From: an uncultured Eubacteriales bacterium
GTDB taxonomy: Bacteria; Bacillota; Clostridia; Peptostreptococcales; Anaerovoracaceae
NCBI GenBank assembly: GCA_900315485.1
Contig: OMZI01000004.1
Location: 32,336 to 96,335 of the forward strand
Length of the DNA: 64,000 bases
Reading direction: 5' to 3'
A program made the translations under genes and the position numbers. Positions 6,770 to 26,269 of this stretch are shown piece by piece. Under the pieces are notes generated by a model. The model was not told the origin of the DNA. It was given only the letters and a program-made list of their open reading frames with translations, and made no database searches. Each line of letters begins with the position of its first letter. The stretch's first letter is position 1.

Positions 6770-6922
6770 GCGTTGTGCGGAAGCTGAGGTATGCCGCATA
6801 CTCAGCGATAGAAAACTATTAGTGGCAAGTTGGAATGAATAGTGTTAAAATTAGCGGGATTGCAATACTGATGGCAGGCGCCGTAAAGCGCCGCATTTAG
6901 ACTTTTGTCAAAGGAAATGGAA

Positions 6923-8719
6923 ATGGAAAAGTACAACTGGACACTCAATGAGAACGATAAGATCGTCTTTCCTGTACCGGAAACAGTAAAGACACCGTGG
7001 GAAGCCTACAGAGGGGATCTTCCATTCACACTTGAGTACTTCAACGGCACTATGTATGAGAAGGTGGAGGAGATCGCAAAGAAGCAGCCTCTCGCCATAG
7101 CTCTGGATTTCATGGGCAAGCACATCACATACAAGTATATGATCGATCAGATCAACCTTTGCGCGAGATCACTCAGAGTTCTCGGAATAAGAGAGAACGA
7201 CAGAGTAACGATCGCAATGCCTAACTGCCCGCAGGCTATATACATGCTTTACGCAACCAACCTCGTCGGAGCAGTTGCAAACATGATCCATCCTCTCTCG
7301 GCAGAGAAGGAGATCGAGAACTATCTCAACATGTCCGGAAGTGTTATGGTCATTACACTCGACCAGTTCTATCACAAGATCGAAGCGATAAGATCCAACA
7401 CCAAGATCCAGAACGTTATCATCGCCCGCATCAAGGACGAGCTGACCAGACCTATCAAGGTCGGATACATGATGACCGAAGGACGCAAGATACAGAGGAT
7501 ACCGAGAGAGGCACCTGTATTCCAGTGGCCTGACTTCATGAAGCTCGGCAGACACTGCGGATATGAGTATAAGGTAAAGCGCAAGGTCGATGACCCGGCT
7601 GCTATCCTGTATTCAGGCGGAACCACCGGAACCACCAAGGGCATCGTGCTGACCAACCTCAATTTCAATGCGCTCGCAGAACAGGTCATCGCCACCAATC
7701 CTATGTTCCGCAGGGGAGATAAGATGCTCGCAGCGATGCCGCTGTTCCACGGATTCGGACTCGGCGTCTGCATACACACCATGCTTGCAATGGGCGGCAG
7801 ATGCATACTCGTACCGAGATTCACACCGAAGAGCTACGCCAAGCTGATCACCAAGTACAGATGCAACTTCATCGCAGGCGTACCGACTCTTTACGAAGCA
7901 CTTCTGAGACTTCCGTCAATGGACGGCAAGGACCTCTCGTGCCTCAAGGGTGTTTTCTCAGGCGGAGATTCGCTCTCGATCGAACTCAAGAAGAAGCTCG
8001 ACAAGTTCCTCTATGACCACAATGCGACTATCCAGGTCAGAGAGGGATACGGCACTACTGAGTGTGTAACGGCATCCTGCCTGACACCTCCGCAGATGCA
8101 CAAGGAGGGAAGCATCGGGATCCCGTTCCCTGATACATACTACAAGATCGTTAAGCCGGATACAGCTGAGGAGCTCCCGTACAATGAAGAGGGCGAGATC
8201 CTGCTGGCAGGACCGACTGTCATGAAGGAGTACCTCGACATGCCGGATGAGACGGCTGAGACTATAAGAGAGCATGCTGACGGACTCAAGTGGGTATACA
8301 CCGGAGACCTCGGAACGATGGACGAGGAAGGCTTCATCCACTTCCGCGGAAGAGCCAAGAGAATGATCATCTCATCCGGATACAACATCTATCCTGCACA
8401 GCTTGAGAACATCTTCGATGCTCATGAGAAGGTGCAGATGAGCTGCGTCATCGGAGTACCTGACAGTTACAAGATGCAGAAGGTCAAGGTTTTCGTTATG
8501 CCTGTAGGGGGAGTTGTACCTGCAACAGATAAGGCTAAGGAAGAGCTTAAGGAAGAACTCATGGCATATGCAAGGAAGCACATCGCCAAGTACGCAATGC
8601 CATATGATATAGAGTTCAGAGCAGAGCTGCCTAAGACACTCGTCGGCAAGGTGGCATACCGTGTACTTGAAGAAGAAGAGGCAGCAAAACGCAAAGCTGC
8701 TGAGTCAACGGAGGAATAA
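6923..8719 (+). CDS. AMP-forming acyl-CoA synthetase (FadD-like acid-CoA ligase)
   Basis: A 598-residue ANL-family adenylate-forming enzyme. Visible motifs: the ATP loop YSGGTTGTTKG, GYGTTE, the hinge region YTGDLGTMDEEGFIHFRGR followed by K, SSGYNIYPAQLE, and the C-terminal catalytic lysine in KTLVGKV. It should activate a carboxylic acid to its CoA thioester; chain length or aromatic nature cannot be read off. AAGGA at 6911-6915 sits 7 bp before ATG 6923, which is preferred over TTG 6905 and ATG 6917. The stop overlaps the next start (TAATG), so the two genes are translationally coupled. A GGCGC-N6-GCGCC hairpin lies just upstream (about 6875-6890). It is the first gene of the accessory catabolic region. 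Confidence 0.85.
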   Translation: MEKYNWTLNENDKIVFPVPETVKTPWEAYRGDLPFTLEYFNGTMYEKVEEIAKKQPLAIALDFMGKHITYKYMIDQINLCARSLRVLGIRENDRVTIAMPNCPQAIYMLYATNLVGAVANMIHPLSAEKEIENYLNMSGSVMVITLDQFYHKIEAIRSNTKIQNVIIARIKDELTRPIKVGYMMTEGRKIQRIPREAPVFQWPDFMKLGRHCGYEYKVKRKVDDPAAILYSGGTTGTTKGIVLTNLNFNALAEQVIATNPMFRRGDKMLAAMPLFHGFGLGVCIHTMLAMGGRCILVPRFTPKSYAKLITKYRCNFIAGVPTLYEALLRLPSMDGKDLSCLKGVFSGGDSLSIELKKKLDKFLYDHNATIQVREGYGTTECVTASCLTPPQMHKEGSIGIPFPDTYYKIVKPDTAEELPYNEEGEILLAGPTVMKEYLDMPDETAETIREHADGLKWVYTGDLGTMDEEGFIHFRGRAKRMIISSGYNIYPAQLENIFDAHEKVQMSCVIGVPDSYKMQKVKVFVMPVGGVVPATDKAKEELKEELMAYARKHIAKYAMPYDIEFRAELPKTLVGKVAYRVLEEEEAAKRKAAESTEE

Positions 8720-9774
8720 TGGAGAGACAGGACAGAGATCTCGCATGGATGCTGCAGTATGAGAATATTGCATGGTACGAAGGTGACGTAGTAAGGATCC
8801 TCGACCGCCGCATATATCCGATCGAGATAAAGAAAGTAGTCTGCAGGACACATCAGGAAGTGGCCGGTGCCATCAGAGAGATGGTGACACAGAGCGCAGG
8901 TCCGTATGTTGCTGCAGCTATGGGTATGGCCCTCGCTGCACATGAGTGCAGAGGCAGGACTGAAGAGGATCAGATAGAGTTCCTCACAAATGCGGCTGAC
9001 GTGATTTCACATGCTAGACCGACGACATCCAAGAGGATGGAGAACGTTACAGATGCATGCCTGGTGGCTGCAAAAGAAGCACTCGCTGCAGGCAAAGCGG
9101 ATGTATCTGAAGTGATCAGAGATCTTGCCATAGAGCAGAACAACACAAGATATTACCGTATCGGAAAGACCGGAAAGTATCTTGCCGACCTTTTCCCTCA
9201 GAACGGCGCAGTAATGACACAGTGTTTTGCCGAGACAATACTCGGAATGATGCTGAGAGAAGCGAGAAAGCAGGGCAAGGATGTCAGATTCTTCTGCCCG
9301 GAGACAAGACCTTACTTCCAGGGCTCGAGACTGACTGCTTCGGTGATCCACGACATGGGATTCGACGTCACGGTCATAACAGACAACATGCCTGCATTCG
9401 TAATGAAGAAGGAGGGCATCGACCTGTTCACATCAGCTGCTGATGTCATCTGCGGTGACGGCCACGTTACCAACAAGGTAGGTACCTATCAGATAGCGAT
9501 CGCTGCAAAGTATCACGATATCCCGTACTATGTCACCGGTTCACCTGATCTGGGACATCCGACGATCGACACGGTACGCATCGAGATGAGGGACCCTTCG
9601 TTCGTGCTCCAGGCCATGGGCACACCTACAGCCAACCAGGAGGTAAAGGGTTACTATCCTGCATTCGACATTACACCGCCTGAACTGGTAACTGGTGTTG
9701 TAACAGACCAGGGCATCTTCTCGCCATTCAAGCTCGATGAGTATGATGCAGACGCAGGAGCATTCCTGGTATAG
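8719..9774 (+). CDS. MtnA / eIF2B-alpha family protein (sugar-phosphate isomerase-like)
   Basis: A 351-residue member of the 5-methylthioribose-1-phosphate isomerase / eIF2B fold. Supporting stretches: a helical N-terminal part with EVAGAIREMVTQSAGPYVAAAMGMALAAHE, ARPTTSKRM, the strongly conserved ETRPYFQGSRLTA, and AADVICGDGHVTNKVGTYQIA. The position of the MtnA catalytic Cys is kept as Cys (VMTQCFAETIL) and Asp of AADVI matches the catalytic Asp, but the usual THCNTG context is changed, so the substrate may differ from methylthioribose-1-phosphate. It overlaps the acyl-CoA ligase stop codon, an unusual partner for this family, and no other methionine-salvage gene is near. Confidence 0.6.
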   Translation: MERQDRDLAWMLQYENIAWYEGDVVRILDRRIYPIEIKKVVCRTHQEVAGAIREMVTQSAGPYVAAAMGMALAAHECRGRTEEDQIEFLTNAADVISHARPTTSKRMENVTDACLVAAKEALAAGKADVSEVIRDLAIEQNNTRYYRIGKTGKYLADLFPQNGAVMTQCFAETILGMMLREARKQGKDVRFFCPETRPYFQGSRLTASVIHDMGFDVTVITDNMPAFVMKKEGIDLFTSAADVICGDGHVTNKVGTYQIAIAAKYHDIPYYVTGSPDLGHPTIDTVRIEMRDPSFVLQAMGTPTANQEVKGYYPAFDITPPELVTGVVTDQGIFSPFKLDEYDADAGAFLV

Positions 9775-10109: not shown

Positions 10110-12923
10110 TTACTTGCGTCCTGTTACTCCGAATGCGCTCAGGTCGTACCATGCAGGTATGATTTTAGGCATTACTTCATCAGGATCGGCCTCTTCGCAG
10201 AAGATGCTGCTGCCGAGGTAGAGGTTGTTGTTGGAGTATCCTGCTCCGATGATGGTCTCTACAGGGAGATCAGCCCATGGATCATCCACGCTGGACTTCA
10301 GCTTGAAGTCCTCTACGAATGCAGGGATCCAGCCTGTGTACTCGTATTGGCAGAGAACCTTGGTCAGTGATGTGCTGAACTTGGATCCGCCGTTCTCATC
10401 AGGCATCTGATCGAAGTGGAAGTAGTATCCGAATCCCTTGGTTTCCTTGCCAGCCGACGGCGCCTGGAAGATAAGGTGAGTCATCGGGTGGTTGTATTCG
10501 CCGAGGCGCAGCTTCATGTCGATGAGCTGTGTGCCTCTTCTTGATACGCTCACATCCACTTTGCCCGTCTCATCATTCTTTCTGATGACGAACTCAGCAT
10601 CTACCTTCTTAGGGATCGACAGTACATCGCGTCCGAGGGCGGTAGCCATCTCTGCGCCCTGTCCTCCGAGCACGAGGCTGATGCAGTAGAGCCCGAGCTG
10701 GCCCTTGTATGTAGCATAAACGCCGAGGATCGATTCGTAGTAATTGTCTGCGAAAGTAGGCTCGTTGATGTGGTTGGCTGATACATATACGAGCGGCAGT
10801 GCGTATGGCTCGAGAGGTGCCGGCAGGATCTCCCTGATCTTGGCAGGGTCTGTAGCATACAGCATGTATACGCCTTCCTGTTTCTTCATTGCGCAGTCCT
10901 TAGCGAATGCCGCCATCTTCTCAGGCGATGTTACGAAGCTTGGCTTTGCCTCAGCGAAGAGGGAAGCTCCGACATCATAACCGCTTCTTGTAGCAGGGCC
11001 CATCGTTCCGTCCTTGATAGCCGATCCAACCAGCTTGACACAGATGCCCTTCTCTTCGAGAGCAGCCTTGAGGCTCTGATCAGGCTTGTAACCGAGCGAC
11101 ATTACTACAGCATCGCATTCGATCTTCTTCTGCTCGCCTGTCTCTACGTTTTCTATGCATACTCCGTCTGCCTCGACTGCCTTGAGAGCATTCTTGAGCT
11201 CGAGAGTAACATCCATCTGCTTGATCCTGCCCATTACATCGATGACGTTGGCGATGTATGCAGTAGGAGCAGGTCTGTCTACCATGTCAACGATCGTGAC
11301 CTTGATGCCTTTCTCGCCAAGGAACTCAGCAGCTTCAAGTCCTGTGAGTCCGGCGCCGATCATTGCTACGTGCTTGCCGGTGAAGTCGACCTCACCCTTG
11401 AGAGCCTGCTCAACTGTGAACACGTTGGCACCGTCCGCACCAGGAATGCTCTTAGGTACGATGCTCCTGGAGCCTGTAGCGAGTACTACTGCGTCAGGTC
11501 CCATGGCTGCGATGTCATCAGCTGTGACTTCCTTGCCAAGCTGAACGTCTACGCCGAGTCTGCAGAGCTGATTGCCCATGTAGTCTATGAAGTTCTGCAT
11601 TCTCTCCTTGAGAGGAGGCAGTTTAGCGAGATTGACCGTTCCGCCGAGCTCTTCCTGTCTGTCAACGAGAGTAACCTTGACACCTCTTTCTGCGAGAGTC
11701 TTTGCTGCGTACATTCCGCCAGGGCCGCCGCCGACAACTACGGCTTTCTTCTCGCCGACGACCGGCTCGAGGTTGCCGCACTTCAGTTCTCTTCCCATTA
11801 CAGGGTTGACTGCGCACTGGAAAGGCTGCAGCTGAGCGTTGATGGTCAGCAGTGTCTCGAAGCAGCGCAGGCAGTTGATGCACTTGTTGAGTTCGTCGAT
11901 ACGGCCTTCCTGTACCTTGACGCCCCATTCAGGCTCTGCCAGCCATGTTCTTCCGAATTCGGCGAAATCATATACGCCTTCCTCCATGAACTGAGCAGCG
12001 ATCTCAGGACTCCTGATTGCCGAAACAGCCATTACAGGGATGTTTACAGCGTCCTTGACTGCCTGGATCATAGGTCTTCTCCAGCCTTCAGGGAAGGATG
12101 TCGGCTCGATAGCCCAGTTGAGAGTCTCATATATACCGCAGCTGACATCGATGAAGTCAATGCCGACTTCTTCGAAGTACTTGACGATTTTGACGCCTTC
12201 TTCGAGATCTATGAAAGGCTCTGTTACTCCGTTGTGCGCGAGCATCTCGTCTACGGAGAGTCTCATGCCCACTACATAATCAGGACCGCACTTCTCGCGG
12301 ATCTTGTCAATGATGTCTTTGACAAAACGCATTCTGTTCTCGAAGCTGCCGCCGTATTCATCATCACGGAAGTTGGTGTATGGCGAAAGGAACTGCTCGA
12401 GAAGATAACCATGCGCGCAGTGAAGTTCAATACCGTCAATGCCTGCTTTCTGGCATCTTACAGCACCGTCACTGAACTGCTCGATGAGCTCAAGAACTTC
12501 ATCATGAGTCAGTGCTCTGGTCGGCTGGTTGGAATACAGACAGACTCTGTCAGACGCCGAGACACATGGCTGACCGCCGATCAGCTTAGATACACCCTCT
12601 CTGCCAGGGTGGTGGAGCTGGATGAATATCTTGGAACCGTGTTTATGAATGGCAGCAGCCAGTCTTGAGAGACCTGCAATATGGCGGTCCTTGGTTACAG
12701 ACAGCTGTCTGAAGGAACCTGCGCCGGTAGCGTCATTGACACGGCAGATCTCAGGAATAATAAGTCCGCATCCGCCCTTGGCTCTTGCTTCATAGTATGC
12801 GATCATTGCATCGCCGCATGAGCCGTCAAGCTCGGCAAGGTTGCTGCCCATAGGGGACATGACGAGCCTGTTCTTCAGCTCGACATTACCGATCTTACCT
12901 TTCTGGAATAAAATATCGTACAT
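10110..12923 (-). CDS. OYE/enoate-reductase-type Fe-S flavoprotein fused to an acetoacetate-decarboxylase-like domain
   Basis: A 937-residue four-part protein. Residues 1-340 are an FMN TIM barrel of the 2,4-dienoyl-CoA reductase/BaiCD group (QLHHPGREGV, HCAHGYLLEQFLSPYTN, DDEYGGSFENR). A 4Fe-4S site follows with Cys 348, 351, 354 and 370. Residues from about 390 hold an FAD Rossmann fold (GGGPGGMYAA) with an inserted NAD(P) fold (GAGLTGLEAAEFLG). After about residue 670, where the family normally stops, comes a 265-residue domain resembling acetoacetate decarboxylase, with GRDVLSIPKK placing a Lys pair at 772-773 like the Schiff-base lysine. Expected: reduction of an activated C=C coupled to a Lys-dependent decarboxylation or retro-aldol-type step. 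GGAGG precedes the ATG. It is last in a four-gene minus-strand operon. Confidence 0.8.
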   Translation of the reverse strand: MYDILFQKGKIGNVELKNRLVMSPMGSNLAELDGSCGDAMIAYYEARAKGGCGLIIPEICRVNDATGAGSFRQLSVTKDRHIAGLSRLAAAIHKHGSKIFIQLHHPGREGVSKLIGGQPCVSASDRVCLYSNQPTRALTHDEVLELIEQFSDGAVRCQKAGIDGIELHCAHGYLLEQFLSPYTNFRDDEYGGSFENRMRFVKDIIDKIREKCGPDYVVGMRLSVDEMLAHNGVTEPFIDLEEGVKIVKYFEEVGIDFIDVSCGIYETLNWAIEPTSFPEGWRRPMIQAVKDAVNIPVMAVSAIRSPEIAAQFMEEGVYDFAEFGRTWLAEPEWGVKVQEGRIDELNKCINCLRCFETLLTINAQLQPFQCAVNPVMGRELKCGNLEPVVGEKKAVVVGGGPGGMYAAKTLAERGVKVTLVDRQEELGGTVNLAKLPPLKERMQNFIDYMGNQLCRLGVDVQLGKEVTADDIAAMGPDAVVLATGSRSIVPKSIPGADGANVFTVEQALKGEVDFTGKHVAMIGAGLTGLEAAEFLGEKGIKVTIVDMVDRPAPTAYIANVIDVMGRIKQMDVTLELKNALKAVEADGVCIENVETGEQKKIECDAVVMSLGYKPDQSLKAALEEKGICVKLVGSAIKDGTMGPATRSGYDVGASLFAEAKPSFVTSPEKMAAFAKDCAMKKQEGVYMLYATDPAKIREILPAPLEPYALPLVYVSANHINEPTFADNYYESILGVYATYKGQLGLYCISLVLGGQGAEMATALGRDVLSIPKKVDAEFVIRKNDETGKVDVSVSRRGTQLIDMKLRLGEYNHPMTHLIFQAPSAGKETKGFGYYFHFDQMPDENGGSKFSTSLTKVLCQYEYTGWIPAFVEDFKLKSSVDDPWADLPVETIIGAGYSNNNLYLGSSIFCEEADPDEVMPKIIPAWYDLSAFGVTGRK

Positions 12924-12936
12924 TAGTGCCTCCTTA

Positions 12937-13806
12937 TTACCTCTTTATATTGTGATCGATCTCAACTGCCTCCGGATTCCTGCGTGCGAGCATGTTCTCG
13001 CAGCGTGCCTGAATGTACTTGTCATAGTGCTCATGTGTGATGATGTAGAGCTGATCATCCTCGATCGCCTTGAATACGACCGGTCCGGATTCGTCAATCG
13101 CACGTCCTGTCATGATCAAATACTTGGCAGCGCCCTGCATCTTCTGGTGAAGCTCGCTTCCATAGTACGGACTCTCGACTTTGTACTTGTCCTGCTTGTA
13201 CTCTTCAGAATGATCTAGGTTGGTCTGGATGAAACCAGGACAGTAAGCGCTGATGTGGATGTTGTTTACGCCAAATGCAATGAGGTCATAGTAAACGGAC
13301 TCAGTCAGAGCAAGTGCTCCGAACTTTGATGCCTGATATGCTGCAGCACTCTTTGATGTGAATCTACCTGCTGCTGAGCATGTGTTGACTATGTTGCAAG
13401 GGGTTCCCTGCTTGATCATGTACGGAATGACCTCGTGCATGAAATAGACGTGCGATTTGAGGTTGGTATCGATGATCCACTCATATTCGAGAGGAGGAAC
13501 GACCCATACAGGTCCGAAAGTAGCAACGCCTGCATTGTTCATCAGAAGGTCGATTTGACCGAACTTCTCAATAACGCCGGCTACTACTGCTTTGACCTGC
13601 TCATACTCTGTTACATCGCAAGGGCAGAGAATGATATCTTCTGCTCCGAGCTCTTTTGCCATCGGCTCGATCGCCTTAAGATCATCTTCCATGATGTCTA
13701 CTGCAGCGATCTTCATGCCGCGCTGAGCTGCCTGCTTGACAAATTCCTTACCGAATCCATGAGCTGCACCTGTTATAAGTGCGACTCTTCCTGCAAAATT
13801 TTTCAT
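12937..13806 (-). CDS. Classical short-chain dehydrogenase/reductase
   Basis: A 289-residue SDR. It has the cofactor motif TGAAHGFG, an Asp after strand 2 (AVDIMEDD) that favours NAD over NADP, NNAG, and the active-site Ser/Tyr/Lys set (CSAAG, then YQASK). A C-terminal extension of about 40 residues (YIITHEHYDKYIQARCENML) is shared with both halves of the tandem SDR at 20111-21907, to which it is clearly related. Expected to oxidise or reduce a secondary alcohol or ketone of the pathway substrate. It is 13 bp upstream of the fused flavoprotein gene and 24 bp downstream of the hydroxyacyl-CoA-dehydrogenase-like gene, so one operon. Confidence 0.85.
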   Translation of the reverse strand: MKNFAGRVALITGAAHGFGKEFVKQAAQRGMKIAAVDIMEDDLKAIEPMAKELGAEDIILCPCDVTEYEQVKAVVAGVIEKFGQIDLLMNNAGVATFGPVWVVPPLEYEWIIDTNLKSHVYFMHEVIPYMIKQGTPCNIVNTCSAAGRFTSKSAAAYQASKFGALALTESVYYDLIAFGVNNIHISAYCPGFIQTNLDHSEEYKQDKYKVESPYYGSELHQKMQGAAKYLIMTGRAIDESGPVVFKAIEDDQLYIITHEHYDKYIQARCENMLARRNPEAVEIDHNIKR

Positions 13807-13830
13807 GCTGCTTTCTCCTCCTTTTTTAAA

Positions 13831-14790
13831 TCAATACTCATAGAAGCCTTTACCGAAGTTAACTCCTTTTTCACCGCGGTCTATCTTCTCTTTGAGAAGC
13901 TTGCCGATCTTATATTCGGTAGTTCCTTCCTGCTGAGCAGCAGGCTTCATCTGATTGATGTTGTATGCTGTCTCGAGGCCGACGATATCGAGGATCTGGA
14001 ACGGTCCTGCCGGAGCACCTGTTGCAAGTCTCCAGGTGAGATCTATGGTCTCAGGATCAGATACGCCGTTGGCCCAGAGTCCCTGTGCTGCACTCAGGAA
14101 AGGGACGAGCATCGAGTTGAGAATGTATCCAGGCTGCTCCTTGTGAAGCTGAAGAGGAACCATTCCGATTGATGCTGCGAATTCAACTACCTTCTGGAAG
14201 ATTTCAGGAGAGGTTCCCGGATGTCCCATGATTTCTGCTGTGTTGTTCTTCCAGATCGTATTGGCAAAATGCAGAGAACAGTACTTTTCAGGACGTCCTG
14301 TGTACTCTGCGAACATGCTAGGAAGAAGTGTGGATGAATTGGTGCAGAGAATTGTGTCAGGATCCAGAAGATCCTTCATCGCTGTATACACACCTATCTT
14401 AGCCTGAGGATCTTCCGACATGGACTCGATTACCAGATATGCGTCTTTGACGGCAGCAGCCATATCGAGCTCGATATGAACGTTTTCTGCAAAACGCTTC
14501 TTAGCACATTCTGCCATTTCATCTATCTTCTCTGCTGTAATACCGTTCCACTCGCTGATGAGCCCCTTAGGATACATGAATGCTCCCATCGGATTGCCAA
14601 TAAGAGCCTTGGCCTTGAGGAGGTCTTCGATCATAAGCGCGGAATAACGATCGATCTTAGGCTGAGTTCTTCCGATCGAGCTTTCAGATCTCAGCCAGAA
14701 TGTTGTGTCATATCCGTGATAAGCACAGATGAGGCCTATCTGTGTTCCGAGGACACCACCGCCTGCTACTACTACTTTCTTTGCATTCAT
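13831..14790 (-). CDS. 3-hydroxyacyl-CoA dehydrogenase family protein
   Basis: A 319-residue NAD-dependent dehydrogenase. N-terminal Rossmann fold GGGVLGTQIG, catalytic region NSSTLLPS and SLHFAN (His of the His-Glu pair), and the C-terminal helical domain ending in the typical KGFYEY. Family members oxidise L-3-hydroxyacyl-CoA, or related 3-hydroxy acids such as L-gulonate or carnitine. With a CoA ligase nearby, a CoA-thioester substrate is plausible, but the Rossmann acidic residue (ESSIGR region) is not diagnostic. It is second gene of the minus-strand operon. Confidence 0.8.
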   Translation of the reverse strand: MNAKKVVVAGGGVLGTQIGLICAYHGYDTTFWLRSESSIGRTQPKIDRYSALMIEDLLKAKALIGNPMGAFMYPKGLISEWNGITAEKIDEMAECAKKRFAENVHIELDMAAAVKDAYLVIESMSEDPQAKIGVYTAMKDLLDPDTILCTNSSTLLPSMFAEYTGRPEKYCSLHFANTIWKNNTAEIMGHPGTSPEIFQKVVEFAASIGMVPLQLHKEQPGYILNSMLVPFLSAAQGLWANGVSDPETIDLTWRLATGAPAGPFQILDIVGLETAYNINQMKPAAQQEGTTEYKIGKLLKEKIDRGEKGVNFGKGFYEY

Positions 14791-14820
14791 ATCATATACC
14801 TCCTGTGAATCCGTTGATTG

Positions 14821-15009
14821 TTACAGACCGAGCTCTTTCTTGAGAGGCTTCCACCAGAGAAAACCTCTGAGAAGGCACTGAGGCAGAGCTTTCTTAACAG
14901 GAATGCCTGCTGCCTTAGCGACATGCCTGCCTTCAAGGAACCATTCTGCTGTGTGGCATATACCGAGTACTGCGACACAGACGCCTAATACTTTTGCAAT
15001 GATTTTCAT
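14821..15009 (-). CDS. Small membrane-anchored protein of unknown function
   Basis: A 62-residue peptide starting MKIIAKVLGVCVAVLGICHTAEWF: one hydrophobic N-terminal segment, then a basic Trp-containing tail (GFLWWKPLKKELGL). No family recognised. ATG 15009 is chosen because GAGGTGAG sits right upstream; the in-frame GTG at 15018 is part of that ribosome site. It is the first gene of the operon leading to the dehydrogenases and fused flavoprotein, 30 bp before the next gene, with a good promoter upstream. A membrane anchor or assembly role is only a guess. Confidence 0.6.
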   Translation of the reverse strand: MKIIAKVLGVCVAVLGICHTAEWFLEGRHVAKAAGIPVKKALPQCLLRGFLWWKPLKKELGL

Positions 15010-15053
15010 AATTCTCACCTCGCAGTTTAGACATAGATTGTAGTTGTACTTTA

Positions 15054-15082
15054 ATTATGAAATCTGCACAAAACGGTAACAA
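15054..15082 (-). promoter_or_regulatory. Promoter of the four-gene minus-strand operon
   Basis: Read on the minus strand, TTGTTA and CATAAT are separated by 17 bp, 45 bp before the small first gene. TTGTGCAG, close to the TTGTGCAC motif found around pucR, lies within the spacer (15064-15071). Confidence 0.6.
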
Positions 15083-15122
15083 TAGTCAGCATATCCAAAA
15101 CAAAGAAAAGCATTTGTCTGCG

Positions 15123-15130
15123 GTGCACAA
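15123..15130 (+). promoter_or_regulatory. GTGCACAA motif upstream of the minus-strand operon
   Basis: An exact GTGCACAA lies 41 bp upstream of the predicted -35 box, between this operon and the end of pucR. The same 8-mer occurs three more times upstream of pucR and the plus-strand arm, which suggests a shared regulator site. Confidence 0.4.
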
Positions 15131-15251
15131 TCGGCAGGAATGAAGCGGGAAAAAATGTCTCCGGAAGAGGGCGGTCTGAGTCAGGTTCCGTACAATAAAA
15201 AAGGCCTCACATTCTGAGGCCTGTGACATATTCAAGATCGTTTATACAAAA

Positions 15252-16787
15252 CTATTTTGCGGCGGCGCTGAAGTCCTTGCCGGCCCATTTTCTCTTCTGG
15301 TTGATGACATTGCTCAGGGCATACGACAGGCGCAGACGGAATCTGGTGTCTGTGTCATCCAGATCGATATCGCACAGCTCTTCTATCCTGCGCAGACGGT
15401 AGATGACACTGTTCCTGTGAAGGTAAAGCGCTTTGGCTGTATCCGTCGTGCTGCAGGAATTTTTAAGATAAGTGTGCAGGGTCAGCTCCAGATTGGTGCC
15501 GTTCTCGGTATCGTATGAGGCCAGTTTAGGCAGTGCCGGATGAAGATATCTGCTGAGATCTTCGGTCTCTGACACCGTCCGGAACATTACATAAATACCA
15601 TAATCCTCGAAAGTATATATGTGAATATCCGGGTCAAGAAGACAGCCTATTTCAAATGCATCCACGGCTTCGTAGAAATGCGCGCGCAGCGTGCCGATAT
15701 CTGTGAACCGCAGGCTGACTCCGATCCTGACCTTGCATTTTTCAGGGAAGAGCCCCGCTATGGTGCTGAGCTTGTGGATCATCTCGCTGCTACCGATGAT
15801 GGTGGCGTTATCTCTCTGAGCAATGACGTGACATCTCGGAAGGATCATTGTCATCTCTTCTGACAGAGCGCCTTCACGCGGGAACGCAGATCCGTCACCT
15901 GTTGCTTTGCAGTAGATCGCTATAAGCTCCGACGGGAACGTCAGCCTGGTGTATGCGTCAGGAAGAGACGCCGCATCGGCACCGATGATGAGATTGTACA
16001 GGAACCTGTGGTAATCACTGGTCATGTACAGATAACTCGGCGCGTACTTCATTACGGCATATCCGAGAATTCCGCTGAGTATCCTCAGCATCTCGACGTG
16101 TTCAGAGCGGTATGAATCATAGCCCTCAATGACTATGAGAAAGCCTATCCACGTGTCGTGGCAGTAGACCCTGCTCGAGAACTTCTGGAAAGGGGACGAC
16201 GGGCAGGAAACTTCTATAGGCGTCATTGTGGAGTCTGCCATCTGGACTGATTTGAGCGACCTGACGGCCTGAATGAATTCGTAGTCGCAGTATCCCTGTT
16301 CAATGTTCTTCTTCCACAGCTCATCTGTGACAGGAATCTGTGTGGAGTAGCTGAGTATCCTGAACTCGCGGTCGATGAATACCAGCGATGCGCCAAAAGT
16401 CTGCGAAGCTATGTCAATCAGAGTGTCGACATCTTTCACCCGTTCCAGAGTATTCATCATGGAATCATAATAGTCATCCTTGTGAGAGCCCTGTATGATC
16501 TGGAAGGCAGTGTTGAATGCATATCCGAAGTCGCTTTCCGCTACCATGGCCAGATTATCCGGCATCGTTGTTATTTCAGATACGGATACTGAGGCAGAGA
16601 ATATACACTGCTTCGGCATCTCTGCACAGCCCTGCATCGTATTGCAGAAATACAGAACGTTGCTTTTGAATTCATGCTGGCGGAAATCTATGAACTGTAC
16701 CTCTGTGATCTCTGTTTCAAGTGAGACTGAGATGATCTCTATCTGGCACATATTGCTGAGCCTTGCAGCTATTTCGCGGAATATCAT
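15252..16787 (-). CDS. PucR/CdaR-family transcriptional regulator
   Basis: A 511-residue regulator. The last 60 residues carry the PucR-type helix-turn-helix: LELTLHTYLKNSCSTTDTAK followed by LYLHRNSVIYRLRRIEELC. The middle resembles a GAF-like sensor and the GGDEF-like CdaR region; the N-terminal part is unique. PucR proteins usually activate purine, amino acid or aromatic catabolism in answer to a metabolite. The gene sits between two arms of related catabolic genes and is the obvious local controller. ATG 16787 has GAGGTG 7 bp upstream, preferred over upstream ATGs. Its own promoter contains the GTGCACAA motif, implying autoregulation. Confidence 0.8.
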   Translation of the reverse strand: MIFREIAARLSNMCQIEIISVSLETEITEVQFIDFRQHEFKSNVLYFCNTMQGCAEMPKQCIFSASVSVSEITTMPDNLAMVAESDFGYAFNTAFQIIQGSHKDDYYDSMMNTLERVKDVDTLIDIASQTFGASLVFIDREFRILSYSTQIPVTDELWKKNIEQGYCDYEFIQAVRSLKSVQMADSTMTPIEVSCPSSPFQKFSSRVYCHDTWIGFLIVIEGYDSYRSEHVEMLRILSGILGYAVMKYAPSYLYMTSDYHRFLYNLIIGADAASLPDAYTRLTFPSELIAIYCKATGDGSAFPREGALSEEMTMILPRCHVIAQRDNATIIGSSEMIHKLSTIAGLFPEKCKVRIGVSLRFTDIGTLRAHFYEAVDAFEIGCLLDPDIHIYTFEDYGIYVMFRTVSETEDLSRYLHPALPKLASYDTENGTNLELTLHTYLKNSCSTTDTAKALYLHRNSVIYRLRRIEELCDIDLDDTDTRFRLRLSYALSNVINQKRKWAGKDFSAAAK

Positions 16788-16854
16788 ATGGTGCACCTCG
16801 CGCCTCGGGGACATGGTTAAACTGCGCAAAGAGTTATTCTGTATTGACAAAATC

Positions 16855-16883
16855 AGCATAGTTTACGGTGCACAACAAGTCAA
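16855..16883 (-). promoter_or_regulatory. pucR promoter with operator in the spacer
   Basis: On the minus strand TTGACT and TATGCT are 17 bp apart, 68 bp before the pucR ATG. TTGTGCAC (16868-16875) lies entirely inside the spacer, which would suit repression or autoregulation. Confidence 0.6.
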
Positions 16884-16993
16884 TTGTCATTATGCCCAAA
16901 TATATCTGGTGGAAAGTGCACAATCATGATGGCCTGCACTGCAGGGGGGATCGTGGTTTTTCATGAATTCTGCCATTAGGTCACCGTGCACAA
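16868..16993 (+). promoter_or_regulatory. Three GTGCACAA operator-like sites between pucR and the plus-strand arm
   Basis: Exact copies of GTGCACAA occur at 16868-16875, 16916-16923 and 16986-16993. With the copy at 15123 they make four in the two gaps flanking pucR. A possible -10 GATAAT at 17021-17026 would place the last copy near -43 of the plus-strand promoter, an activator position. The 372-bp gap 16788-17159 holds nothing else apart from an AT-rich stretch at 17040-17075. Confidence 0.5.
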
Positions 16994-17159
16994 ATGTCTT
17001 TTATTGTTTTGGGTAAGTCGGATAATGCCCGGAGGATATCGTTAATTTTATAATTTAATCAGATAACTTATAACCTTGGTTCACCACGCCCGGCTGTGAC
17101 GGATCGCGTGACAGCCGCGGCTATCCTTAGAAGCTTCTGAAAGAAGGAAAGGAGAAACT

Positions 17160-19976
17160 ATGTACGATAAGCTATTTGAAAAAGGTAAGATCGGCAATGT
17201 CGAAATCAAGAACAGACTGGTTATGACCCCGATGGGAACAAACCTGGCTAACCTTGACGGAACACCGGGGCCTGCAATGATCAAGTATTATGAAGACAGG
17301 GCTGCAGGCGGATGCGGACTGATCATGCCGGAGATCTGCAGAGTCAATGAGAAGACCGGAGCAGGAATGCTCAGACAGATCGCAGCAACCAAAGACTATC
17401 ACATCCAGGGACTGAAAGAGCTTGCGATGGCCGTTCATAAACACGGTTCCAAGATTTTCATCCAGCTCCATCACCCTGGCAGAGAAGGAGTTTCCTCGCT
17501 GATCGGCGGACAGCCATGCGTATCTGCTTCTGACAGAGTATGCAAGGTATCACAGCAGGAAACAAGACCAATGACAATCGAAGAGATCCATGAGCTGGTA
17601 GGACAGTTCGGTGATGCAGCTCTGAGATGCAAGAAGGCCGGCATCGATGGTATCGAGCTTCACTGTGCTCACGGATATCTGCTCCAGCAGTTCCTGTCGC
17701 CTTACACCAACTACAGAGATGACGAGTACGGCGGCAGCTTCGAGAACAGAATGAGACTTGTTCTCGAGATCATCGAGGACATCCGCAAGAAGTGCGGCCC
17801 TGATTTCCCTCTCGGCTGCAGAGTATCCGTAATTGAGTTCCTCGACAAGATCGGATATGACGGAGATCAGATCAGACTCGAGGATGGTATCAAGATCGTT
17901 AAGTGCCTTGAAGAGGCAGGCATCGACTTCGTAGACGTTTCCGATGGTCTCTATGAGACAGGAAGCTTCTCCGTAGAGCCTATCTCATTCCCTCAGGGCT
18001 GGAGAAAGCCATTCATCAAGGCTATCAAGGATGTAGTAAAGATTCCTGTAATCGCAGTATCCGTAATCAGAGAGCCTGCTGTTGCAGAGAATTTCCTCGA
18101 TGAGGAAATCGTAGACTTCGTCGGCATGGGCAGAACATGGATCGCTGATGCTGAATGGGGCAAGAAGGTACAGGAAGGCAGAGAGGATGAACTCAACAAG
18201 TGTATCGCTTGTCTGAGATGCTTCGAGTCACTGCTCGGCCTCAATGCTCAGGGACTCCCGTTCGAGTGCGCTGTAAACCCGAGAGCATGCAACGAGCTCC
18301 GTTACGGAGATCTCGAGCCTGTAAAGGGTGAGCACAAGGCTGTAGTAGTCGGCGGCGGCCCTGGCGGAATGTATGCAGCAGCTACTCTTGCCAAGAGAGG
18401 CGTTGATGTAACACTTATCGACAGACAGGAAGAACTCGGCGGAACCGTAAACCTCGCCAAGAAGCCTCCTCGGAAGGAAAGAATGCAGTGGTTCATCGAC
18501 TACCTCAAGCAGGATATGGAGAAGGCAGGCGTCAAGGTATGCCTCGGCTGCGAAGCTACAGCAGATGACATCGCTGCAATGGAGCCTGAAGCAGTAGTTC
18601 TTGCAACAGGATCAACTTCGATCTTCCCTGCAAGCATCCCTGGCGTTGACGGCGACAATGTATACGCAGTCAATGACGTTCTGAACGGCAAGGTAGACCT
18701 CGCAGGCAAGAAGGTAGCTATGATCGGTGCAGGACTCACAGGTCTTGAAGCAGGTGAGTATCTTGCAGAGACAGGCGCTGAAGTAACATTCATAGACATG
18801 CTCAAGGTTGCAGCTCCTAACGCATACAGACTGAACGTAGTAGACGTTCAGACAAGACTCGCCAAGCTCGGCGCAAAATATGAACTCGGCAACGCTCTCA
18901 AGGCTATCCTGCCTGACGGAGTATGCATCGAGAACGTAGACACCAAGGAAGAGAAGAAGGTAGATGCTGATGCAGTCGTACTCTCACTCGGATACAAGCC
19001 TGACCAGTCACTCAAGGCAGCTCTCGAGGAAAAGGGACTCTGCGTTAAGGTAGTAGGCTCTGCAGTCGTTGACGGAACGATCGCACCTGCATCAAGAGGC
19101 GGCTATGAAGTTGGCGCGTCACTCTTCGCAGATGAGGAACTCAGTTTTGCCATCGGTGACGGACAGTTCAAGTCCTTCTCGAAGATCTCACACATGAGAG
19201 GCCAGGAGGGCACATACGTAGCTTACCTGACGCAGCCTGAGGCTATCAGGAAAGTGCTGCCTGAACCACTCGAGCCATTCTCGATGCCTGTAGTAACAGT
19301 CAGCTGCTGCCACATCAAGGACCCTACATTCGCAGACAACTACTATGAGACGATCCTCGGCGTATACTGCACATATAAGGGCCAGCTCGGTATGTACACC
19401 GTCAGCCTGCTCCTTGGAGGACAGGGCGCAGAGATGGCAACACAGCTCGGACGTGACAACTCGGCTATCCCTAAGAAACTGGATGCAGAATTCGTGATCA
19501 GAAAGGATGACGAGACGGGCAAAGTAACAGTTGGTGTATGCAGAAGAGGCACTCAGATCATCGACCTCGAGATGCAGCTCGGAAGCTACAATCACCCACT
19601 GATGCACGTACTGTATCAGGCACCGGCTCCTGGCGCAGAGACAGCAGGCAGCGGATACTACATCCACTTCGATAGACTGCCTGGAGAAGATGGAGTATGG
19701 AAGTTCGATAATGTATTCCTGCTGAGAAACGTTGTTAAGTACAAATACGATGACTGGAAGCCGGGCTTCGTAACCAGGTTCGAGCTGAAGTCCAGCATCG
19801 ACGATCCATGGGGCTGTCTGCCGGTCAACACCATCATCGGCGGAGCTTATGCAGAGAACAACCTGCTGATCACAGCACTGCAGAAACTCGAGGACGTAGA
19901 TGCAGAATCCACAATGAAGAAGATCCTGCCTGCATGGTATGACAGAACAGCATTCATGGAAGTAGGACGTAAGTAA
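17160..19976 (+). CDS. Second OYE-type flavoprotein fused to an acetoacetate-decarboxylase-like domain
   Basis: A 938-residue paralogue of the protein at 10110-12923, colinear along its whole length. FMN barrel (HHPGREGV, HCAHGYLLQQFLSPYTN, DDEYGGSFENR), 4Fe-4S cysteines at 348, 351, 354 and 370, FAD fold near 394 (GGGPGGMYAA), NAD fold near 520 (GAGLTGLEAGEYL), and the C-terminal decarboxylase-like domain with GRDNSAIPKK, Lys 772-773. That numbering is identical in both proteins, so the fusion predates the duplication. A strong AGGAAAGGAG precedes the ATG. It heads the plus-strand arm, divergent from pucR, and is followed by the tandem SDR gene. Confidence 0.8.
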   Translation: MYDKLFEKGKIGNVEIKNRLVMTPMGTNLANLDGTPGPAMIKYYEDRAAGGCGLIMPEICRVNEKTGAGMLRQIAATKDYHIQGLKELAMAVHKHGSKIFIQLHHPGREGVSSLIGGQPCVSASDRVCKVSQQETRPMTIEEIHELVGQFGDAALRCKKAGIDGIELHCAHGYLLQQFLSPYTNYRDDEYGGSFENRMRLVLEIIEDIRKKCGPDFPLGCRVSVIEFLDKIGYDGDQIRLEDGIKIVKCLEEAGIDFVDVSDGLYETGSFSVEPISFPQGWRKPFIKAIKDVVKIPVIAVSVIREPAVAENFLDEEIVDFVGMGRTWIADAEWGKKVQEGREDELNKCIACLRCFESLLGLNAQGLPFECAVNPRACNELRYGDLEPVKGEHKAVVVGGGPGGMYAAATLAKRGVDVTLIDRQEELGGTVNLAKKPPRKERMQWFIDYLKQDMEKAGVKVCLGCEATADDIAAMEPEAVVLATGSTSIFPASIPGVDGDNVYAVNDVLNGKVDLAGKKVAMIGAGLTGLEAGEYLAETGAEVTFIDMLKVAAPNAYRLNVVDVQTRLAKLGAKYELGNALKAILPDGVCIENVDTKEEKKVDADAVVLSLGYKPDQSLKAALEEKGLCVKVVGSAVVDGTIAPASRGGYEVGASLFADEELSFAIGDGQFKSFSKISHMRGQEGTYVAYLTQPEAIRKVLPEPLEPFSMPVVTVSCCHIKDPTFADNYYETILGVYCTYKGQLGMYTVSLLLGGQGAEMATQLGRDNSAIPKKLDAEFVIRKDDETGKVTVGVCRRGTQIIDLEMQLGSYNHPLMHVLYQAPAPGAETAGSGYYIHFDRLPGEDGVWKFDNVFLLRNVVKYKYDDWKPGFVTRFELKSSIDDPWGCLPVNTIIGGAYAENNLLITALQKLEDVDAESTMKKILPAWYDRTAFMEVGRK

Positions 19977-20110
19977 CTTTATCTCCGGAGGGGTTCCTCC
20001 AACAGAAACAAGGTAATGAGACGGGGTGCCGCATCATGCGGCATCCCGGGCAGAAATTTAAAGGGCTTAATATAATAGACAACTACGATGAAATCCATAG
20101 GGGGAATATT

Positions 20111-21907
20111 ATGAAGGACTTTAAAGGAAGAGTAGCTGTTATTACCGGAGCTGCCAATGGATTCGGATTCGAATATGTCAAAGAGGCAGCAAAGAGAGGA
20201 ATGAAGATCCTCGCAGTAGATATCGAGGGCGATGAGGTTCTTGCATGCGAACCGGTCGCTAAGGAACTCGGAGCAGAAGAAATCGTATGCCTGCAGGCAG
20301 ACGTGTCACTTCTGGAAGACACTCAGAAGATCGTTACGTGCGCCATGGACAAGTGGGGCCAGATCGACCTTCTGATCAACAACGCAGGAACAGGCAAGGG
20401 CGGATATATTGAAACACTACCGCTCAGAGACTGGGAGTGGATGATGTATGCCAATGTATTCTCCCAGATCTACATGATGAAACAGGTCATTCCTATCATG
20501 ATGAAGCAGGGCACACACTGCAACATCCTCAACGTATGCTCGATAGCTGGACTCATCACAAGCAACGCTATGCCTGGCTACTATTCGACCAAGCACGCAG
20601 CTGTTTCTCTGAGCCGTGCTACACGCAACGAGCTTGAGGAGATCGGTGTAGATAATATCCACATCAGCATCTTCTGCCCTGGCTTTGTACAGACCGACCT
20701 GCATCACGCAGAGCGCCACAGACCTGCCAGATTCTCTGACCCGACCGATCCTTACTATACAAGTGCAGAATTCCGGAAATTCGAGAAGATGAGCGAGTAC
20801 GTAGTTACTACGGGTCTTCCGATCGACGGATTCGGTGAAAAATGCTTCAAGGCCATCGAGGATGATCAGTTCTACATCGTAACACATCCTCAGTATGATC
20901 CAATCATCAGAAAGCAGATCTATGACAGCGTAAACAATGTCAACCCTGATTTGAAGAATGTAGGCAAAGAGCCTAAGGCTTATGAGAAGGGAGACAAAGA
21001 CCTGGCCGGCAGGGTAGCTCTTATTACAGGTGCTGCATACGGATTCGGTAAGGAATTCGTCAAAGAGGCTGCCAAGAGAAAGATGAAGATCGCTGCAGTC
21101 GACATCATGGAGGATGAGCTTGCCAAGATCGAAGATGTTGCCAAGGAATTCGGTGCTGAAGACATCCTGATCATCCCTGCGGACGTATCACTGTATGAAG
21201 AAACAGAGAAGGTCGTCAATGCCGTAATGGACAAGTGGGGCCAGATCGATCTTCTGATGAACAACGCAGGAACCTGCACGCCTGGACCTGGATTTGTCAT
21301 TCCGCTGCAGGATTGGGAGTGGATCTTCCGCACCAACTATCTGTCACACGTTTACTTCATGAGGCAGGTAATTCCAATCATGAGAAAGCAGGGCACACAC
21401 TGCAACATCATGAACACCTGCTCGGTAGCCGGACTCATCACAAGCACCGGCATGGCTGCGTACTATACGACCAAGAATGCAGCTGTAGCTTTGTCTGAAT
21501 GCATCGAATACGAGATGCAGGAGACAGGATCGGACATCCACCTCGGAGTATTCTGTCCGGGCTTCGTACGCACCAACTTTGACCACGCTGATGAGTATCG
21601 TCCTGCAAGATATGCTCACGGAGATGATCCGTACTATCAGAGCGAGACCTTCGCAAAGGGCAAAGCTGCTGCACAGTTCGTAATCGGAACAGGCTATCCG
21701 ATCGAAGGCTTCGGAGCGAGAGTATTCAGGGCAATCGAGAATGATGAGTTCTATGTAGTCACTCACCGTGAATATGATGAGCACATCATTAAGCAGGTAG
21801 AGCAGACCATCGCAAGGGAAAATCCTGTAGTTGCGTCGATATCTGAGGCAATCAAGGATGTTACAAATCTCCCTGGCGGACCGCTGAGAGGATATCTCAA
21901 AGACTAA
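20111..21907 (+). CDS. Tandem fusion of two SDR dehydrogenases
   Basis: A 598-residue protein made of two complete, related SDR units joined by a short linker (about residues 288-305, KNVGKEPKAYEKGDKD). Unit 1 has TGAANGFG, AVDIEGDE, NNAG, CSIAG and YYSTK; unit 2 has TGAAYGFG, AVDIMEDE, NNAG, CSVAG and YYTTK. Both active sites look intact, and both prefer NAD by the Asp after strand 2. Unit 2 is closer to the free-standing SDR at 12937-13806. ATG 20111 with AGGGGGA upstream is chosen over the ATG at 20036. Two successive oxidoreductions, or an internal dimer, are possible. Confidence 0.85.
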   Translation: MKDFKGRVAVITGAANGFGFEYVKEAAKRGMKILAVDIEGDEVLACEPVAKELGAEEIVCLQADVSLLEDTQKIVTCAMDKWGQIDLLINNAGTGKGGYIETLPLRDWEWMMYANVFSQIYMMKQVIPIMMKQGTHCNILNVCSIAGLITSNAMPGYYSTKHAAVSLSRATRNELEEIGVDNIHISIFCPGFVQTDLHHAERHRPARFSDPTDPYYTSAEFRKFEKMSEYVVTTGLPIDGFGEKCFKAIEDDQFYIVTHPQYDPIIRKQIYDSVNNVNPDLKNVGKEPKAYEKGDKDLAGRVALITGAAYGFGKEFVKEAAKRKMKIAAVDIMEDELAKIEDVAKEFGAEDILIIPADVSLYEETEKVVNAVMDKWGQIDLLMNNAGTCTPGPGFVIPLQDWEWIFRTNYLSHVYFMRQVIPIMRKQGTHCNIMNTCSVAGLITSTGMAAYYTTKNAAVALSECIEYEMQETGSDIHLGVFCPGFVRTNFDHADEYRPARYAHGDDPYYQSETFAKGKAAAQFVIGTGYPIEGFGARVFRAIENDEFYVVTHREYDEHIIKQVEQTIARENPVVASISEAIKDVTNLPGGPLRGYLKD

Positions 21908-23008: not shown

Positions 23009-23452
23009 TCAGCCTACAAGAATCTTTCCGCCTTCCTGTACGACTATGTTCATTCCATCCCTGACGTAATCAAGGAACTCATCCCCGAGTGAATCGATGA
23101 CAGGCATATTGACATCATCGAGCCACACGTCTGCGAGCACAGTTCCTGCCGCAGCAAGTGAGTCGATCGGCTTGGAGAACAGCATGCAGGCAGGCTGTCT
23201 GCCCATCGAGCATGCGCAGTAGAGAACCAGTCCACCCGTTGTGGAGCCGATGGTCTGAGGCAGGCAAAGCGCCTTACCTGCCATCTGCTTTCCGTACAGG
23301 TCAGGGTTGTTCTGGTCGCCGCAGGTCGCATTCTTATCGCCGAACTGCAGCGCCTTCTGGAAGGAAGCAAGTGTATTGAGTCCCTCGTGTGATACGAGTG
23401 CTTCGGCAGCTATTCTGCCCGGTACGACTACACGTCCTTTGAACTCTTTCAT
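23009..23452 (-). CDS. Aconitase X small (swivel) subunit, DUF126
   Basis: A 147-residue protein matching the swivelling domain of aconitase X: start KGRVVVPGRIAAEALVSHEGL, and the catalytic-serine loop LPQTIGSTTGG, followed by hydrophobic strands (CMLFSKPIDSLAAAGTVLADV). In this superfamily a Ser from the small unit acts with Fe-S and substrate-binding residues of the large unit to dehydrate a hydroxy acid. The gene begins one base after the large-subunit stop, a typical coupled pair. Confidence 0.8.
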   Translation of the reverse strand: MKEFKGRVVVPGRIAAEALVSHEGLNTLASFQKALQFGDKNATCGDQNNPDLYGKQMAGKALCLPQTIGSTTGGLVLYCACSMGRQPACMLFSKPIDSLAAAGTVLADVWLDDVNMPVIDSLGDEFLDYVRDGMNIVVQEGGKILVG

Positions 23453-23453
23453 T

Positions 23454-25087: not shown

Positions 25088-26269
25088 ATGACAAAAGTCG
25101 ACATTTTTTCAGGATTTCTCGGAGCAGGAAAGACCACACTTATCAAGAAACTCATCGCTGAAGGATATGAGAACAAGAACATCGTACTCATTGAGAACGA
25201 ATTCGGTGAGATCGGTGTTGATACGGGCTTCCTCAGAGAGTCAGGGATCAAGATAAATGAAATGGTAGCCGGATGCATCTGCTGCACACTGGTAGGTGAC
25301 TTCGGCAAAGCACTTAATGAAGTAATCGAACAGTATAACCCGGACAGGATCCTCATCGAGCCGTCCGGAGTCGGAAAACTGTCAGACGTAATTATCGCAG
25401 TTCAGGATCTTAAGAATGACAAGATCCGGCTCAACGGATTCACAACAGTCGTAGATGCAAAGAGATACGACATGTACATGGAGAATTTCGGAGAGTTCTA
25501 TAAGAATCAGGTAGAGCACGCAAGCTCGATCTTCCTTTCACATCAGCAGGGCATGAGCGCAGAGGAGATCGACAGGATCGTTAAGTCGATAAGAGAGCTC
25601 AACGCAGAGGCTGAGATCGTAACCACTGACTGGGATCAGCTGAGCGGAGCCAAGATGCTCGAGGTAATGGAGTCGAAGAAGACTCTGAGTGCAGAGCTCG
25701 ACAAGCTGAGAGAAGAAGCTTACGAGGAACTTGCAGCACACGAACATGAGCACGAGTGCGACGATGATGAGTGTGAGTGCCATCACCACCATCACCACGA
25801 TGATGACGATGATGACGACGAGCATGAACATCATCACCACCATCATCATGATCACGACGACGATGACGATGACGACGATGAGCATGAACATCATCACCAC
25901 CATCATCATGATCACGACGACGATGACGATGATGACGACGAACATGAGCATCACCACCACCATCATCACCATCACCATCACCACCACGGACATGATGCTG
26001 ATGAGGTATTCGACGAAGTCGGAGTACATACAAGCAACAAGTACTCAAGAGCAGAGATCGAGGAGATCGTTGACAGCCTTGATGAGTGCGGAGAGGTGCT
26101 CAGAGCCAAGGGCATCGTAGAGAACACTGAAGGCGGATGGCTCGAATTCGACTACGTACCTGGTGAAGGTGAAGTCAGAGAGACAGAGGCTGAGGCAACC
26201 GGAATGGTAGTTGTTATCGGAACAAGCCTCAAGAAGGACAAGATCAATAAGCTGTTCAGACTGGCTTAA
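25088..26269 (+). CDS. CobW/G3E-family GTPase with a long His/Asp metal-binding repeat
   Basis: A 393-residue G3E GTPase. P-loop GFLGAGKTTL, switch region ENEFGEIGVD, and the CICC metal-relay motif (AGCICCTLVG) are intact. The usual NKxD guanine-specificity motif is replaced by SHQQ. Between the GTPase and CobW_C domains (about residues 217-299) lies an extreme run of His, Asp and Glu made of 20-residue repeats. G3E proteins hand Zn, Co or Ni to target enzymes; the His-rich stretch suggests zinc or nickel buffering. Two palindromic operators precede it and a second CobW-type gene follows 67 bp later. Confidence 0.85.
   Translation: MTKVDIFSGFLGAGKTTLIKKLIAEGYENKNIVLIENEFGEIGVDTGFLRESGIKINEMVAGCICCTLVGDFGKALNEVIEQYNPDRILIEPSGVGKLSDVIIAVQDLKNDKIRLNGFTTVVDAKRYDMYMENFGEFYKNQVEHASSIFLSHQQGMSAEEIDRIVKSIRELNAEAEIVTTDWDQLSGAKMLEVMESKKTLSAELDKLREEAYEELAAHEHEHECDDDECECHHHHHHDDDDDDDEHEHHHHHHHDHDDDDDDDDEHEHHHHHHHDHDDDDDDDDEHEHHHHHHHHHHHHHGHDADEVFDEVGVHTSNKYSRAEIEEIVDSLDECGEVLRAKGIVENTEGGWLEFDYVPGEGEVRETEAEATGMVVVIGTSLKKDKINKLFRLA
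25801..25980 (+). repeat. 60-bp in-frame tandem repeat coding His/Asp runs
   Basis: Three near-identical 60-bp units (25801-25860, 25861-25920, 25921-25980); bases 25877-25920 are identical to 25817-25860. Each unit encodes an Asp run, EHEH, a His run and DH. Such in-frame repeats can change length by slippage or recombination. Confidence 0.85.

Follow-up and report, generated by a model that had tools for sequence, protein, structure and literature searches.

Two OYE-ADC fusion genes in the window

We analysed a stretch of 64,000 nucleotides (the window) from contig OMZI01000004.1 of an uncultured Eubacteriales bacterium, which holds two genes each encoding an old yellow enzyme (OYE) type protein fused to a C-terminal domain of the acetoacetate decarboxylase (ADC) superfamily. 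Protein 1 (937 aa) lies at 10110..12923 on the minus strand and protein 2 (938 aa) at 17160..19976 on the plus strand; the two are 65% identical. The Pfam search found Oxidored_FMN at residues 5–343 of protein 1 (E 3.9e-72) and 4–344 of protein 2 (E 2.6e-74), Pyr_redox_2 at 393–623 and 393–640, and ADC (PF06314) at 665–904 and 679–911, with 121 and 122 bits against a cut-off of 29.8 (E 7.6e-35 and 3.8e-35). These domains, together with the motifs, agree with the initial annotation of this DNA, in which both open reading frames (ORFs) had been given the FMN, 4Fe-4S, FAD and NAD build of a FadH-type OYE. The ADC domain occupies residues 661–937 in protein 1 (10113..10943, minus strand) and 661–938 in protein 2 (19140..19973, plus strand). 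The extra C-terminal part claimed earlier is therefore present; it runs from residue 661 to the C-terminus and, with about 277 residues, is slightly longer than the claimed 265. The motif GRD-x4-PKK with K772-K773 was likewise found in both proteins, the two lysines being encoded at 10605-10610 in protein 1, where they align to K115-K116 of the ADC structure 3bh2, and at 19473-19478 in protein 2. In the genome to which the window belongs (85.6% complete), these two proteins were the only PF06314 matches.

The OYE half has all the features of the FadH type, namely an FMN barrel, four Cys residues for a 4Fe-4S cluster, and FAD and NAD(P) motifs. H168, H171, Y173, C348, C351, C354, C370 and both dinucleotide motifs were invariant in 36 aligned fusions. 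Three NCBIfam models aligned over about residues 1–654: BaiCD (NF041087; 462 bits, equivalog cut-off 825), mycofactocin OYE_2 (TIGR03997; 443.9 and 442.6 bits, cut-off 793.15), and bilirubin reductase. All scores were far under the respective cut-offs, which rules out membership in any of the three groups. The BaiCD equivalog was still the best NCBIfam match, so the earlier label "BaiCD type" is right only in a loose sense. A full-length model of protein 2, built from 36 aligned sequences, had a mean pLDDT of 79.8 and a pTM of 0.60. By fold and sequence, the best PDB matches of the N-terminal 650 residues were 2-naphthoyl-CoA reductase (6qkg, 31% identity) and FadH (1ps9, 27%). The fusion differs from the class of FadH, 2-naphthoyl-CoA reductase and BaiCD in that these enzymes lack the C-terminal ADC domain.

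The same fused frame was found in many species and in independent assemblies, isolates included, which rules out a chance ORF or a mis-assembly. In eight ortholog pairs, dN/dS was 0.035–0.066 for the OYE half and 0.041–0.075 for the ADC half; the latter values rule out that the ADC half is a decayed passenger domain.

Distribution of the fusion

Six fused ADC domains were aligned and used to scan a species-genome collection. The scan gave 83 relatives, of which the best 80 were kept, corresponding to 73 distinct loci; as every match had to contain two short peptide patterns, more distant members escape it. Of the 73 loci, 69 were fused (66 by ORF, and L066, L073 and L097 by tblastn). The other four comprise three that are cut at contig ends (L090, L091 and L095) and one whose reading frame is broken close to where the two halves join (L084). 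Several of the 69 fused loci have parts missing, in most cases at a contig end; in L088 the gap is in the middle, and in L105 it takes up most of the OYE half. Some genomes hold two or three of the 73 loci.

By our own reading, all hosts are Clostridia or their kin, and the carriers live in the gut, the mouth and sediment. They include Mogibacterium timidum, Baileyella intestinalis, Mobilibacterium timonense, Hespellia stercorisuis, Robinsoniella peoriensis, Oscillibacter ruminantium, Acetobacterium paludosum, A. tundrae, Sinanaerobacter chloroacetimidivorans and Lachnotalea glycerini. The distribution is patchy. Among 40 relatives, a full-length match was found in eight and a partial match at contig ends in two more. 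Of 297 genomes of the order, nine carried the ADC domain, which was fused in seven, split in one and stand-alone in one; of 398 genomes of the phylum, two carried it, the window's own genome counted.

Fold and key residues of the ADC domain

Modelled alone from 35 sequences, the ADC domain of protein 2 reached a pLDDT of 90.0 and a pTM of 0.88. In a Foldseek search, all 24 PDB chains at E ≤ 0.001 belonged to the ADC superfamily (3bgt, 3bh2, 3c8w, 3cmb, MppR, Sbi and Swit_4259). The lack of an ADC-fold match, named earlier as one of the results that would count against the proposal, was thus not what we found. With PF06314 E-values of about 1e-35 and the Schiff-base lysine motif, the assignment of the C-terminal domain to the ADC superfamily stands.

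We then compared residues with 3bh2 as the anchor, reading in each sequence the places of R29, E61, E76, K115 and K116 (R29 and E61 are numbered as in Clostridium acetobutylicum ADC). R29 and E61 matter for acetoacetate decarboxylation. In the fused domains these five places held Q, S, E, K and K in 35 of 35 sequences, the last three being the invariant E730, K772 and K773. Six stand-alone ADC genes kept R, E, E, K and K and are taken here as probable true ADCs: L150, L153, L163, and three in what we take to be acetone operons, with thiolase and CoA-transferase genes recognised by eye. In two further ADC-like genes, L141 and L053, R29 and E61 are lost, as in the fused domains. By our reading of the alignment, R29 and E61 are replaced by A and Y in Swit_4259, and by G and F in Sbi, while E and PKK are kept in both. 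The fused domains therefore lack both residues of true ADCs and show the same combination as Sbi and Swit_4259, that is, R29 and E61 lost with E76 and PKK retained. The GR motif before PKK is absent from Sbi and Swit_4259, whereas the fused domains have GRD and the true ADCs GRE. The PDB titles of the Sbi and Swit_4259 entries read "aldolase-dehydratase", "Schiff base complex with pyruvate", "covalent complex with dienone product", or ADC-like. We take the published activities of these two proteins to be those of aldolase-dehydratases.

Split forms and origin of the fusion

Three loci carry the OYE and ADC as separate, adjoining genes. L139 has OYE (646 aa), ADC (270 aa) and short-chain dehydrogenase (SDR; 257 aa) genes next to a PucR-type regulator gene. 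L049 has an extended SDR (344 aa), an OYE (650 aa) and an ADC (292 aa). In L140 (6109-12762), a glycyl radical enzyme and its activase are followed by an ADC (270 aa) and an OYE (698 aa). That the two genes adjoin in three unfused operons, and in both gene orders, indicates a functional link independent of the fusion. In the three split ADC genes the R29 place holds Q, Q and A and the E61 place Y, Y and F, and E, K and K are kept in all. The L140 glycyl radical enzyme was nearest to (2S)-3-sulfopropanediol dehydratase, with a score below the cut-off (986.7 against 1000); as an enzyme of the diol-dehydratase type upstream of the ADC and OYE genes, it would give an aldehyde.

Five relatives of the L139 ADC (L145–L149) came from the order to which G335 belongs, in five of 149 genomes besides G335 itself. 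Each lies between a PucR gene and an SDR gene, with no OYE in the 1.5 kb seen, and in all five the residues are A, F, E, K and K.

In midpoint-rooted FastTree trees, 36 fused OYE halves formed one clade (support 0.997), its neighbours being the OYE of L140 and three further OYEs from the genus, and the other two split OYEs (L139 and L049) branched elsewhere. The 36 fused ADC halves formed a clade with a support of 0.469 beside the L049 and L140 ADCs. A single fusion event is likely, though not proven, on these trees.

Regulator and dehydrogenase genes beside the fusion

In the window, a single PucR-type regulator gene (15252..16859, minus strand; PF13556 HTH_30, E 3.5e-21), divergent from the gene of protein 2, lies between two units. 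One consists of protein 1, an adjoining SDR (12937..13806, minus strand; adh_short, E 4.7e-46) and a 3-hydroxyacyl-CoA dehydrogenase-like gene (13831..14790, minus strand; NF006143, 380.7 bits, cut-off 312). The other consists of protein 2 and, downstream of it, a gene for a chain of 623 aa with two SDR domains (20036..21907, plus strand; adh_short matches in two stretches).

The neighbourhood of the fusion was counted by tblastn in the 57 of 73 loci with enough flank, the other 16 being set aside. A PucR-type gene was found within 4.5 kb in 51 of the 57 and a same-strand SDR within about 1 kb in 47. Both occurred together in 46, a raw count taken without a random baseline for adjacency. These counts supersede earlier ones made with an ORF picker (PucR 54/73, SDR 49/73, both 36/52). 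In L123, a Zn-type alcohol dehydrogenase occupies the place of the SDR. The 3-hydroxyacyl-CoA dehydrogenase-like gene was found in only 7 of 73 loci, by an ORF picker that drops genes under longer antisense ORFs, and is not a core part of the module.

A candidate operator

The palindrome GTGCA-N3-TGCAC was sought in the 44 intergenic regions that separate pucR from the divergent gene in 42 loci, the window (16800-17160) and L139. It was present without mismatch in 14 of the 44 and with at most one mismatch in 28, as compared with 0.02 and 0.14 per set in letter-shuffled regions. In 32 of the 44, the site stood between the TTGACA-like and TATA-like boxes of a pucR promoter; shuffled sets gave 0.02 such cases on average and 1 at most. 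Common descent accounts for part of this conservation, as the loci are related. However, L139 has a perfect palindrome, though without the full composite, and its regulator shares only 24% identity with the window's over the aligned part.

The window's own candidate (16861..16873, plus strand) has two mismatches and lies inside the pucR promoter, at a place homologous to the site of its relatives. A second match, with one mismatch, is at 16909-16921; the whole window has five such matches against 2.5 expected. A promoter and terminator scan gave no more matches than did shuffled sequences. Its conservation marks GTGCA-N3-TGCAC as a probable regulatory site, to which the PucR-type regulator may bind and thereby repress its own gene.

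With a longer operator pattern, 12 genomes gave 27 matches with at most two mismatches, against six for a reversed control pattern. Ten matches had 0 or 1 mismatch; eight of these were at the cassette itself and two elsewhere (G335:C1:2631173 and G303:C2:242052). We therefore rejected the idea that a wider regulon might point to the substrate.

Proposed function and alternative explanations

The OYE half would take hydride from NAD(P)H on its FAD and pass the electrons via the 4Fe-4S cluster to FMN, where an activated C=C bond would be reduced, as its fold and invariant motifs suggest. In the ADC-fold domain, K772 would react with a ketone or 2-oxo acid to give a Schiff base, and E730 would probably act as acid/base. 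The changes at the R29 and E61 places, compared with true acetoacetate decarboxylase, make an aldol, retro-aldol, dehydration or hydration step its most likely reaction, with a conjugated enone as product or substrate. OYEs typically act on compounds of this kind, dienones or enones. The idea that links the two halves is thus an enone, which an aldolase-dehydratase would produce and an OYE would reduce: it could be made by the ADC domain and reduced by the OYE half, or be used by the ADC domain. The neighbouring alcohol dehydrogenase (the SDR, or the Zn-type enzyme in one locus) could interconvert carbonyl and alcohol, and the PucR-type regulator could control the module from the GTGCA-N3-TGCAC site.

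These parts are held with different strengths. A functional coupling of the OYE and ADC activities is well supported, and we consider it highly probable. This much of the bifunctional enzyme claimed earlier is favoured by the three split operons, by the five loci with an ADC gene between PucR and SDR genes, and by the recurrence of the module in 46 of 57 loci; of the two reactions then named for the ADC domain, decarboxylation is disfavoured by the Q and S at the R29 and E61 places, and the making or breaking of a C-C bond is preferred. That the coupling consists of aldol/dehydration-type Schiff-base chemistry making or using an enone that the OYE half reduces is a tentative proposal, to which we give slightly less than an even chance. 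Besides the residue pattern, it is favoured by the PDB titles of Sbi and Swit_4259, with their pyruvate Schiff base and dienone product, and by the aldehyde that the L140 glycyl radical enzyme would supply. The full picture is more doubtful, namely one chain that builds or breaks a C-C bond as a Schiff-base aldolase-dehydratase and reduces the resulting enone, with its own regulator and dehydrogenase, across Clostridia. We know of no natural aldol-condensation/ene-reductase enzyme that has been described.

Several observations weigh against this proposal. The GR motif, common to the fused domains and the true ADCs, speaks against simple membership with Sbi and Swit_4259. Foldseek placed the domain closer to true ADCs (E 3e-14) than to Sbi or Swit_4259 (E 1.6e-11), and phmmer and hmmsearch with fused domains matched true ADCs only. 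The trees of the OYE and ADC halves are not in full agreement. L140 has no adjoining PucR or SDR gene. Among the 57 assessable loci, the SDR is absent in 10 and the regulator in six, including five that lack both (both absent in L076, L077, L079, L080 and L082; only the SDR in L074, L093, L096, L105 and L123; only the regulator in L124).

Some of these points would fit an ADC domain that decarboxylates a larger beta-keto or vinylogous acid, with the SDR oxidising a hydroxy acid and the OYE half reducing a C=C bond before or after, an explanation close to that of the initial annotation. True ADCs are the nearest relatives by sequence and by Foldseek E-value, the two lysines, the glutamate and the GRD motif are kept, and the SDR partner could supply a beta-keto acid. 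However, the fused domains have Q and S where all six stand-alone ADCs have R and E, and we regard this explanation as unlikely. It is less probable still that the ADC domain is a Schiff-base isomerase, which would move a double bond from the beta,gamma to the alpha,beta position and so feed the OYE half. Iminium chemistry would allow such a shift, but we know of no ADC-superfamily isomerase, and the five ADC-SDR loci have no OYE in the 1.5 kb seen. A non-catalytic ADC domain, which oligomerises the enzyme or binds a ligand, seems very improbable. Many OYEs work without such a domain, and nothing more direct favours this explanation; against it are the invariant lysines and glutamate, the low dN/dS of the ADC half, and the split operons that keep the ADC as a separate gene. 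For the isomerase there is a precedent in the OYE-3beta-HSD/isomerase fusion, in which an OYE is joined to a dehydrogenase/isomerase of one pathway (PMC12238238); the ADC domain would be the counterpart of the partner domain in its isomerase role.

Comparison with known enzymes

In PMC12238238, this fusion of gut bacteria (for example, mf2052) is described, with 61 of 257 homologs fused. It resembles the OYE-ADC protein in that a gut OYE carries a C-terminal catalytic domain of the same pathway, and in this respect it is also a precedent for the enone-linked enzyme proposed above. It differs in the partner, which is a Rossmann-type 3beta-HSD (PF01073 type) and not a PF06314 ADC fold. Gut OYEs already described have bile acids and steroid hormones as substrates (PMC12238238). 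An OYE that contains a second catalytic domain is therefore a promising starting point for finding a new step of gut chemistry.

Acetoacetate decarboxylase (3bh2, 3bgt, 3c8w) has in common with the fused domain its fold, the GR-x-PKK region, K115, K116 and E76. The fused domain differs in its changed R29 and E61 places, its OYE partner, and the absence of adjoining acetone-pathway genes. Sbi (4zbo, 4zbt, 6eej) and Swit_4259 (5upb) share the fold, the loss of R29 and E61, and E76 with PKK; unlike the fused domain, they are stand-alone and without GR before PKK, and the fold score of the fused domain is lower to them than to true ADCs.

We found no OYE-ADC enzyme in the open-licence literature, which agrees with the earlier remark that no enzyme of this build had been described, although it is no proof of absence. 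As far as was searched, the OYE-ADC protein is a real, conserved and apparently undescribed new combination of known folds. The open-licence literature assigns no reaction to this enzyme, which is apparently regulated and occurs in anaerobic Clostridia of the gut, the mouth and sediment. Experiments on it are feasible, since named isolates carry it (for example, Hespellia stercorisuis, Acetobacterium paludosum and Lachnotalea glycerini). Should the ADC half truly be an aldolase-dehydratase, the protein would be a ready two-step biocatalyst.

Other OYE fusions were seen as well. L018:991-3993 is one from the genus of the window, of 1001 aa, with a C-terminal short-chain dehydrogenase domain, and the ORFs of about 970–1010 aa at L014–L017 look, by their appearance, like it. 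In L082:3339-9828, a fusion of an OYE with an extended SDR (1154 aa), which resembles the published OYE-3beta-HSD type, lies directly upstream of an OYE-ADC fusion.

Other genes in the window

The acyl-CoA ligase, the IF-2B-like gene, the aconitase X genes and the transporters of the window were considered as module parts and rejected, since an ORF survey of 20 relative loci found no match to them except ABC-type ATPases. The acyl-CoA ligase gene overlaps the next gene by one base (6905-9774), an unusual pair, and the overlapping gene passes NF004326 (methylthioribose-phosphate isomerase subfamily) with 335.6 bits against 271. The aconitase X genes are at 23009-24851, the large one with PF04412 (E 1.7e-90) and the small one by position only. 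At 25088-26269, a putative GTPase, which we presume to be CobW-like, has long His/Asp-rich repeats.

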